Shown: positions 33,349 to 34,595 of the stretch, piece after piece
How positions within the stretch are numbered: the first letter of the stretch is position 1
Layout of the letters: each line of letters opens with the position of its first letter
Origin: Dehalococcoidia bacterium
GTDB lineage: Bacteria; Chloroflexota; Dehalococcoidia; Tepidiformales; Tepidiformaceae
NCBI GenBank assembly: GCA_022826585.1
Contig: JAJDUR010000059.1
Coordinates: 1 to 35,526 of the forward strand
DNA: 35,526 nucleotides
Direction of reading: 5' to 3'
Translations under genes and position numbers: made by a program
The notes under the pieces: model-generated
Databases searched by the model: none
Told to the model about the DNA's origin: nothing
What the model saw: the letters and a program-made list of their open reading frames with translations, nothing else

Positions 33349-33687
33349 TCAGCCCTCCGCGGCGGCGCGGCGCTCGCGCGCCTCGATGGAGTAGGGGAGC
33401 TCGTTCATGAACTCGAGCTCTTCCTCCTCGAGGCACTCGCCGAGGCCCTTCGACCACTCGCTGAACTCGGGGTCCCGGCCCGCGACTTCGAGGACGGACC
33501 GGACGGCGTTGGCGTCGGGCATCTCCCAGAGGTCGTAGCAGCGGTTCAGGCGGCCGATGCTGTTCTGGTAGGCGCCGTGGAGGCGCCACCCGTTCTTTTC
33601 GAGAACGGGGACGAGGTGCGACATGATCTCCTGGAACTCCTGCGTCTTGCCGTACTTGCACTCCAGGCGAACGAGCATGAAAGGCAT
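33349..33687 (-). CDS. NIPSNAP/Dabb-like small protein
   Basis: 112 residues with a ferredoxin-like alpha/beta pattern: LVRLECKYGKTQEFQEIMSHLVPVLEKNGWRLHGAYQNSIG, then CYDLWEMPDANAVRSVLE and a C-terminal helix. Proteins of this shape are small dimers with mixed roles; a function cannot be set. GGAGG lies six bases before the ATG. It follows the selW-like selenoprotein gene on the same strand after 37 bases and is likely co-transcribed with it, which makes it a candidate partner. The gap contains the AGCCAACAGCCAG repeat word. Confidence 0.7.
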   Translation of the reverse strand: MPFMLVRLECKYGKTQEFQEIMSHLVPVLEKNGWRLHGAYQNSIGRLNRCYDLWEMPDANAVRSVLEVAGRDPEFSEWSKGLGECLEEEELEFMNELPYSIEARERRAAAEG

Positions 33688-33723: not shown

Positions 33724-34008
33724 CTACGAGAGACGGGCGGCGATGGCTTCCTGCAGCTCCTTCACCTCCGGGTAGCGCCCCTGCGCCTTCTTGGAGAACA
33801 CGAGGTCGCCATCGACGGCGACCTCGAAGGCGCCGTCGGCGCCGGGGATGAGGGTGAGGGAGGCGGTCTGCTCGGCGAACATGTCGAGAAGCTCCTGGGC
33901 CGTCCACGCGGCCCGTGCGGTGTAGTCTCAGGGGACGCAGTATTCGATCGAGATCGCCAATGCCTGCTGGACCATGGGGAGGGCCTCCAGTTCGGATTGG
34001 TTGCTCAT
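33724..34008 (-). CDS. SelW/Rdx-type selenoprotein (in-frame UGA as selenocysteine)
   Basis: 94 residues when TGA at 33928-33930 is read as selenocysteine. The start gives MSNQSELEALPMVQQALAIS, then IEYC-VP-U-DY, with Cys24 and Sec27 forming CxxU. The rest, ARAAWTAQELLDMF, LTLIPGADGAFEVAVDGDLVFSKK and GRYPEVKELQEAI, continues the Rdx (SelW/SelT/SelH) thioredoxin-like fold without a break, including the usual VDG-x-LVFSKK and GRYP motifs. Such proteins take part in thiol redox reactions; the family often has CxxC in place of CxxU. A hairpin follows the UGA (33897-33914). TACACT lies six bases before the ATG, so a leaderless mRNA is likely. It needs SelA, SelB, SelC and SelD, which are not in the window. 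Confidence 0.88.
33897..33914 (-). promoter_or_regulatory. SECIS candidate downstream of the SelW-like UGA
   Basis: RNA stem GGGCC/GGCCC, 5 bp, with an 8-base loop GCGUGGAC, starting 13 bases after the UGA. Bacterial SECIS elements are coding-region hairpins just downstream of UGA with a G at the start of the loop, as here. A partly overlapping alternative stem (CCGCACG with CGCGUGG) exists. Not tested by folding. Confidence 0.5.
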
Positions 34009-34020
34009 GGAGCCAGTGTA
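34009..34020 (-). promoter_or_regulatory. Leaderless-type -10 element of the SelW-like gene
   Basis: Minus-strand TACACT (34015-34020), six bases, ATG 34008. Confidence 0.5.
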
Positions 34021-34050
34021 GCGCCCCCGGCTCCCCGGAGGCGGGCGCTA
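34019..34050. promoter_or_regulatory. Inverted repeat between divergent selenoprotein genes, operator candidate
   Basis: TAGCGCCC (34019-34026) and GGGCGCTA (34043-34050) are exact reverse complements. The left arm overlaps the edge of the minus-strand -10 and the right arm overlaps the start of the plus-strand TATAAT. A further CTCC-CC-GGAG lies inside. A single regulator bound here could control both genes. Confidence 0.5.
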
Positions 34051-34054
34051 TAAT
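34049..34054 (+). promoter_or_regulatory. -10 box of the UGSC gene
   Basis: TATAAT, a consensus -10, rare in this GC-rich sequence. GGGGAGG follows at 34064-34070, six bases before ATG 34077, so this gene has a normal leader. No -35 consensus is visible. Confidence 0.6.
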
Positions 34055-34076: not shown

Positions 34077-34595
34077 ATGACCACGATTCTGGACCCCACC
34101 GACGAGCGCGTTCCCGTACGACGCTCGCTGACGAAGCGACCCGAGGCGATCAGCGGCACGGTTGCGCTGCTGGACATCTCGAAGCCGCGGGGCGACGTGC
34201 TGCTGGACCAGCTCGAAGTCCTGCTGCGGGAACGGCTGCCCGAGGTGGACGTGCTCCGCTACAGCAAGCCGACCTTCACGAAGCCGGCGCCGGAGGCGCT
34301 CCGGCAGGAGCTGGCGAAGGAGGCGGACTTCGTCGTCGAAGGGCTTGCCGACTGAGGGTCGTGCACGACGTGCAGTGTGCACGACACGACCTGGCTGGAA
34401 ATCAACGGCATCCCCTCGGTGTTCATCACATCGGACGAGTTCGTGGAGGCGGCTGAGGCGCAGGCGGAATCGCTGGGGCTGCCTGAAGTGCGGCGCCTGT
34501 TCGTGCCCCACCCCATCCAGGACGCGAACGACGACGAGATGCGGGAGAAGGCGGATGCGATCGTGGACGACGTGATCGCGGCGCTGATCGACTAG
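34077..34595 (+). CDS. UGSC-motif selenoprotein (in-frame UGA as selenocysteine)
   Basis: 172 residues when TGA at 34353-34355 is read through. The chain runs [28 protein letters not shown], then [34 protein letters not shown] and [17 protein letters not shown]. Sec93 with Gly-Ser-Cys96 gives the UGSC motif that defines a known (seleno)protein family of unclear function; here a second Cys99 makes UGSCTTC. A split reading would leave a 92-residue fragment and a GTG-started fragment with no Shine-Dalgarno, both without the motif. An 8-bp hairpin follows the UGA (34359-34384). It is transcribed away from the SelW-like gene across a shared 68-base region. A redox role is inferred from the Sec/Cys pattern. 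Confidence 0.88.
34359..34384 (+). promoter_or_regulatory. SECIS candidate downstream of the UGSC UGA
   Basis: UCGUGCAC (34359-34366) pairs exactly with GUGCACGA (34377-34384) around a 10-base loop GACGUGCAGU that starts with G. It begins three bases after the UGA. A competing 7-bp stem GGUCGUG/CACGACC (34357-34363 with 34385-34391) and a small UGCAC-GAC-GUGCA hairpin also exist. Which one forms is unknown. Confidence 0.5.

Follow-up and report, generated by a model that had tools for sequence, protein, structure and literature searches.

A predicted SelW-like selenoprotein gene divergent from a UGSC selenoprotein gene in a Tepidiformaceae bacterium

The stretch of DNA analysed here (35,526 nucleotides, called the window below) is predicted from its sequence to carry, on the minus strand at 33724-33975, a real selenoprotein gene of the known and common SelW-like (Rdx) family, a reading to which we assign a probability of about 0.9. 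A selenoprotein gene of the UGSC family lies next to it in divergent orientation, and a redox relay between the two products is plausible, though unproven.

Frame, start codon and family of the SelW-like gene

The first-pass annotation had proposed a 94-residue selenoprotein encoded on the minus strand from the ATG at 34006-34008, through a TGA at 33928-33930, to the TAG at 33724-33726. These coordinates are correct and, with TGA read as U, the translation has 94 residues with U27 in the motif YCVPU. Frame and TGA position stand, whereas the start codon has to be revised. When the region between the start of the UGSC gene and the UGA of the rdx gene was aligned for 8 sequences of the genus, the ATG at 33973-33975 was common to all of them and was preceded in all of them by a Shine-Dalgarno-like GGAGG (33984-33988, minus strand; spacing 8 nt in seven sequences, 7 nt in the eighth), whereas only 4 of them have an ATG at the place that aligns with position 34008. 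For this reason ATG 33973-33975 is taken as the start, and the gene likely comprises 33724-33975 on the minus strand and would encode 83 residues with a CxxU motif and Sec at residue 16. The in-frame extension upstream (33976-34008, minus strand) is probably 5' leader and not coding. Further upstream, the sequence gctacact, identical in 8/8 genus sequences, includes TACACT (34015-34020, minus strand), a candidate -10 element of the SelW-like gene; the equally invariant attatagc (8/8) lies opposite TATAAT (34049-34054, plus strand), which may serve as -10 element of the UGSC gene. At 36 bp downstream of the SelW-like gene follows a NIPSNAP-domain gene (PF07978, 38.6 bits; 33349-33687, minus strand), which is probably co-transcribed with it and which is present at 8/8 genus loci; no NIPSNAP gene was found near 7 other loci of Sec-type Rdx, of which one extends no further than the rdx gene. 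As had been claimed, the gene is hidden from stop-to-stop gene finding; the SelW/Rdx family itself is well known.

The search against PF10262 that the first-pass annotation had suggested gave an Rdx match for residues 19-90 of the read-through protein (E=1.2e-24, 86.7 bits, cut-off 22.6), and TIGR02174 (CXXU_selWTH) scored 66.8 bits with a cut-off of 34.2. A chance read-through is excluded because 63 of the 72 Rdx-matched residues come after the TGA. The equivalog model SelTWH_Campy (NF041051) reached 77 bits, short of its cut-off of 88. A structure model built from 29 sequences (pLDDT 88.1) places the CxxU motif YCVPU where the first strand (residues 17-24) ends, with a helix at residues 30-47. 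At E<=0.001 this model gave 23 Foldseek matches, all of them to entries of Rdx, MIEN1 or SelW; bacterial Rdx proteins account for the best 21 matches to solved structures (TM 0.76-0.95, rmsd 0.8-1.1; 2oka and 2fa8 at the top), and mouse SelW (2npb) ranks 23 with TM 0.63-0.66 and E 1.8e-4. The window gene thus shares with bacterial SelW-like selenoproteins (PF10262, TIGR02174) the CxxU motif, the fold and a UGA with a downstream hairpin, but differs from the usual members in being divergent from a UGSC selenoprotein gene and in having a Cys paralogue in its own genome, whereas very few or no Cys homologues of SelW-like proteins among Sec-using organisms are reported in the part of PMC1794560 that was accessible. 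Both SelW-like and UGSC proteins are known selenoprotein families according to the accessible portions of PMC1794560, PMC2398784, PMC9312934, PMC5029168, PMC12013277, PMC1088965 and PMC13188914.

Predicted decoding of the in-frame UGA

The assembly of the window's genome (2.7 Mb in 127 contigs, 93.67% complete, 5.14% contamination) holds all components of the selenocysteine machinery for which a search had been proposed, each above its cut-off: tRNA-Sec (71.1 bits; tca anticodon with ARAGORN), SelA (517.8 bits), SelB (293.2 bits) and SelD (337 bits). The SelD gene of this genome (L048, G000:C41:13067-14002) has one in-frame TGA itself, and SelD is for this reason probably a selenoprotein as well.

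A true stop codon in close relatives, which would have spoken against selenocysteine, was not encountered: all 9 genomes of the genus, the window's own included, keep TGA as well as the sequence downstream of it. The other 29 genomes of the family that were searched yielded the TGA form in 5, only a Cys form in 10 and no match in 14, and altogether 43 of 99 genomes (own included) gave 57 Rdx matches, 23 with one in-frame TGA and 34 without. A Cys paralogue of Rdx is present alongside the TGA form in 8/9 genus genomes. Named genomes were scanned with a profile of the Sec clade alone, a mixed Sec/Cys profile being too divergent, and 50 loci were obtained, of which 47 display the CxxU pattern and 3 display no pattern. 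The nearest of these relatives come from Dehalococcoidia/Chloroflexi MAGs, one of them titled Tepidiformaceae, and further ones from Poribacteria, a Rossellomorea, a Planctomycetota and a Gammaproteobacteria record; judging from isolate names, several of the MAGs presumably derive from sponges. Many Poribacteria genomes have Sec-form Rdx with a hairpin in a different register (L155-L187). Tandems of Cys-Rdx and Sec-Rdx, about 70-120 bp apart, were seen in four genomes of the class (L058 and L059 in G026 and G014; L300 and L304 in G215 and G251).

From the 36 non-independent pairs of the 9 genus sequences, pN/pS was 0.27 after the TGA and 0.13 for the 9 codons that precede it, and the codons downstream of the TGA are, on this sequence comparison, under purifying selection. 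At 14-31 nt after the UGA, the RNA could form a SECIS-like hairpin, GGGCCG-CGUGGA-CGGCCC (33897-33914, minus strand), whose 6 base pairs are intact in all 16 Sec sequences (96/96 cells). At one pair, G-C (9 sequences) alternates with C-G (7), both partners being wobble bases in synonymous codons (Arg U+5 and Ala U+10); this covariation concerns one pair only and possibly goes back to one or two events. Codons U+6 (GCC), U+7 (GCG) and U+9 (ACG) are each represented by a single codon in 16/16 sequences, while all other downstream invariant residues that have synonyms vary in codon usage. The hairpin appears in the minimum-energy fold of the single sequence in 11/16 cases, and in more distant homologues a hairpin occurs at a similar position in a different register. 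The conserved hairpin is a putative bacterial SECIS which, together with SelB and tRNA-Sec, would recode the UGA as selenocysteine. By analogy with the family, Cys13 and Sec16 of the CxxU motif would then cycle between the thiol/selenol and the selenenylsulfide state and so move two electrons.

Other readings of the TGA fare poorly. Its use as a simple sense codon, which the first-pass annotation had already discounted, is rejected, as TGA terminates 3 of the 6 neighbouring family-assigned genes examined and TAG the other 3; prpE, glpX and the HD gene, three of the examples named earlier, lie outside this set. That TGA does terminate genes here could suggest that it is a real stop in a pseudogene or behind a short peptide, but the pN/pS of 0.27 after the TGA, the TGA kept throughout the genus, the hairpin conserved at synonymous sites and the complete Sec machinery make this very improbable. 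Still harder to credit, and refuted by the relatives, is a sequencing error in a Cys codon (TGC or TGT): the TGA is found exactly at the Cys position of the Cys homologues, as such an error would have it, but an identical TGA occurs in 9/9 genus genomes and in 5 other genomes of the family, and 47 of the 50 named loci have CxxU.

The UGSC neighbour and the extent of the Rdx-UGSC link

On the plus strand, divergent from the SelW-like gene, lies a gene (34077-34595) that had been overlooked in the first-pass annotation and is predicted to encode a UGSC family selenoprotein of 172 residues with Sec at residue 93 (in-frame UGA at 34353-34355, plus strand). It is a member of the family by both models, with 167.8 bits for PF24696 (cut-off 25) and 169.3 bits for NF041046 (cut-off 125), and it has the UGSC motif. 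The gap between the genes amounts to 68 bp from ATG 34008 and to 101 bp from the likely start of the SelW-like gene. A SECIS-like hairpin, CGUGC-AGUGU-GCACG (34369-34383, plus strand), follows the UGA; 28/28 close UGSC genes have the same codons from U+5 to U+9, the hairpin is part of the minimum-energy fold in 16 of these 28, and its counterpart in the UGSC-B genes read is CGUGG-AGUGU-C(C/U)ACG. No relatives of UGSC were found in a scan of viral contigs, and comparison with PDB sequences, using an alignment (A2) that includes one row with wrong coordinates (L080), gave no match up to E=1. A structure model of UGSC is weak (pLDDT 64.8; 9 sequences with 85-98% identity to that of the window), and its listed fold matches are mostly flavodoxin-like or other alpha/beta proteins with E>=1.8e-3 and TM <0.54. 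The accessible text of PMC2398784 suggests a thioredoxin fold for UGSC and describes UGSC as fused with a conserved domain that is left unnamed.

The same alignment A2, in which the misplaced row L080 has 26% identity, gave weak matches to the models of GrdB and GrdF (10 and 9 of 16 members, respectively, at E<=0.1; best E 1.6e-4). The window's UGSC stays far below the curated GrdB cut-off (13.9 vs 602.2 bits) and has 172 residues vs 431 model positions. UGSC itself resembles the Sec subunit of a reductase with two components.

Sec-type Rdx and UGSC genes are divergent in all genomes of the genus, with the match ends no more than about 110 bp apart in 8/9 and about 2.6 kb apart in the ninth (G005). 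The Cys-Rdx paralogue is located just upstream of a different UGSC gene, on the same strand, in 8/8 genus genomes with a Cys copy; the UGSC gene of this second pair is cut by a contig end in the window's own genome. Searches of 294 genomes of the class detected UGSC in 94 and Rdx in 122, and comparison of the two lists gave 57 genomes with both. Twenty Rdx places were chosen first, 5 of them because both genes were known to lie on one contig (G128, G278, G180, G105, G090). A same-strand UGSC gene follows downstream in 17 of the 20, at <=90 bp in 7 and at 1.0-3.5 kb in 10, and all 17 are Cys-Rdx; the three unlinked places comprise one Cys and two Sec types, and for one Sec type the downstream sequence read amounts to only 0.7 kb. 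A further 20 Rdx places, taken from 16 two-family genomes not yet sampled, had no UGSC gene (0/20) within <=3.5 kb on each side, or less near contig ends. Genomes G017 and G057 show linkage, no UGSC gene was found within about 1.5 kb of Rdx in G042, G062, G065, G067 and G094, and for the Sec-Rdx of G009, G014 and G026 no UGSC link was detected. Taken together, 28 of the 55 two-family genomes examined (a tally set up without G046 and G261) have the link: 9 belong to the window's genus, G017 and G057 add two, and 17 come from the first 20 places. They belong to families f1, f2, f21 and, at 3.5 kb, f50.

Pairing of the Sec form with UGSC was seen only in the window's genus: outside it, none of the 23 Sec-Rdx genes read has a UGSC gene in its stretch; for 13 of them the sequence to one or both sides is short or cut. 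In a tree of 53 Rdx rows, which was calculated from few columns and has many open forks, one clade (99/95) unites the 11 rows of linked Cys-Rdx from f1 and f21, apart from the window's Sec sequences. Moreover, genome G064, which is rich in UGSC, gave no Rdx match and genome G065 gave one. Because the link is clade-bound and G064 lacks an Rdx match, Rdx is not an obligate partner of UGSC; a role as general partner is ruled out likewise, the 20 further Rdx stretches being devoid of UGSC. Titles and abstracts in the partially covered literature do not mention an Rdx-UGSC link or a UGSC expansion, and novelty of the link is not established. A 2025 study by Haft and Tolstoy reportedly may treat UGSC neighbourhoods.

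A partner family of UGSC and possible roles of SelW

A protein of about 350 residues is encoded downstream of the UGSC gene paired with Cys-Rdx in 7/7 genus genomes searched that have the Cys pair and in two stretches of f21. It has no Pfam match, and the same family recurs among the UGSC neighbours of G064 and G065 (for example L206:6809-7921, beside UGSC). The domain described as a fusion partner of UGSC in the accessible text of PMC2398784 may or may not correspond to this family; the UGSC literature, as far as it was accessible, mentions neither the family nor a link to Rdx.

UGSC-partner cassettes are numerous in both genomes. The pattern TGAGGNNSNTGYACN occurred 170 times in G064 vs 14 times for the reversed control, and 46 vs 16 times in G065. 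Stretches of G064 picked around matches (L190-L205 and L210-L269; 1,351,846 bases, 27% of the genome) were analysed with a home-made UGSC profile of 65 sequences, some from G064 and G065 themselves, and 148 UGSC domains were obtained: 142 have a UGA in U[GA]xC, 1 has UGAs outside the motif and 5 are without UGA. Clustering of the 142 candidates gave 141 groups at 90% identity and 90 at 70%, and in 91% of the candidates the downstream folding energy is below that of synonymous resamplings (mean z -1.3). A partner gene lies on the same strand within 400 bp of 138 of the 148 UGSC domains, and whole-genome searches gave 142 partner matches in G064 (202 candidates, 142 of them scored) and 56 in G065. 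Among 195 near neighbours in G064, a set that includes some false or antisense ORFs, 56 form one cluster (representative SBP_bac_5) and 48 the partner cluster, while two further clusters, with 23 and 18 members and always on the strand opposite UGSC, resemble antisense frames. SelB of G064 scored 353 bits, and the listed contamination of this genome is 7%. The largest bacterial selenoproteome cited in the accessible part of PMC13188914 has 63 selenoprotein genes (a Methylomirabilota MAG) and followed one of 57 in an Olavius symbiont; the largest in the set of PMC12013277, as far as its text was accessible, has 46. The 142 candidate UGSC selenoprotein genes of G064 exceed the 63 of the Methylomirabilota MAG and, if they are true, the UGSC-partner expansion would represent the richest bacterial selenoproteome yet described. 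Stop-to-stop gene finding overlooks the SelW-like gene of the window and this very large gene family in a relative alike.

What SelW does in the cell can be framed in several ways, bacterial SelW-like and UGSC proteins being functionally largely uncharacterised according to the accessible text of PMC13188914, whose section 9 names clusters of Prx with SELENOW-like proteins and does not name SelW with UGSC. We give about even chances to a SelW that acts independently, as a general antioxidant or redox regulator, with its position beside UGSC due to common selenium or stress regulation or to chance inherited within the genus. This agrees with the lack of UGSC near any of the 23 Sec-Rdx genes outside the genus, with the NIPSNAP gene that comes after the genus gene and with the many UGSC genes of G064, a genome without Rdx match. 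The well-supported separate clade of Cys-type Rdx upstream of UGSC in several families, however, is not what independence would lead one to expect. If SelW has a specific job, the likeliest is that it would reduce UGSC (UxxC) or exchange with it, and this we propose only tentatively.

Equally tentative is a broader version, according to which Rdx would be the dedicated redox partner of a two-component reductase made up of UGSC and the partner of about 350 residues and related to GrdB, CxxU and UxxC working together like GrdA and GrdB or like thioredoxin and GrdB. GrdA is a CxxU protein, and the likeness to glycine reductase (selenoproteins A and B) consists in the pairing of a CxxU protein with a UxxC protein. 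Two separate Rdx-UGSC arrangements, the linkage in 28 of 55 genomes with both families, the weak resemblance of UGSC to GrdB and GrdF and the partner adjoining nearly all UGSC domains in the G064 stretches are in favour of a dedicated partner; on the other hand, a link is missing from the stretches read in 27 of the 55 genomes, UGSC-partner cassettes abound in G064 and G065, which have no and one Rdx, respectively, and the GrdB score of the window's UGSC is only a small fraction of the cut-off. Moreover, no tie between Rdx and GrdA was found, and UGSC is much shorter than the GrdB model. Somewhat less probable again is that Rdx would, in the linked clades, take the part of GrdA or thioredoxin as electron carrier of an unrecognised selenoenzyme system of UGSC, as GrdB-like Sec subunit, and its partner, one that has multiplied to well over 100 cassettes in a relative, many of them beside substrate-binding proteins. 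The SelW-UGSC pair kept in the genus, the second link in other families and the co-occurring partner family together delineate a concrete redox pathway that can be tested.
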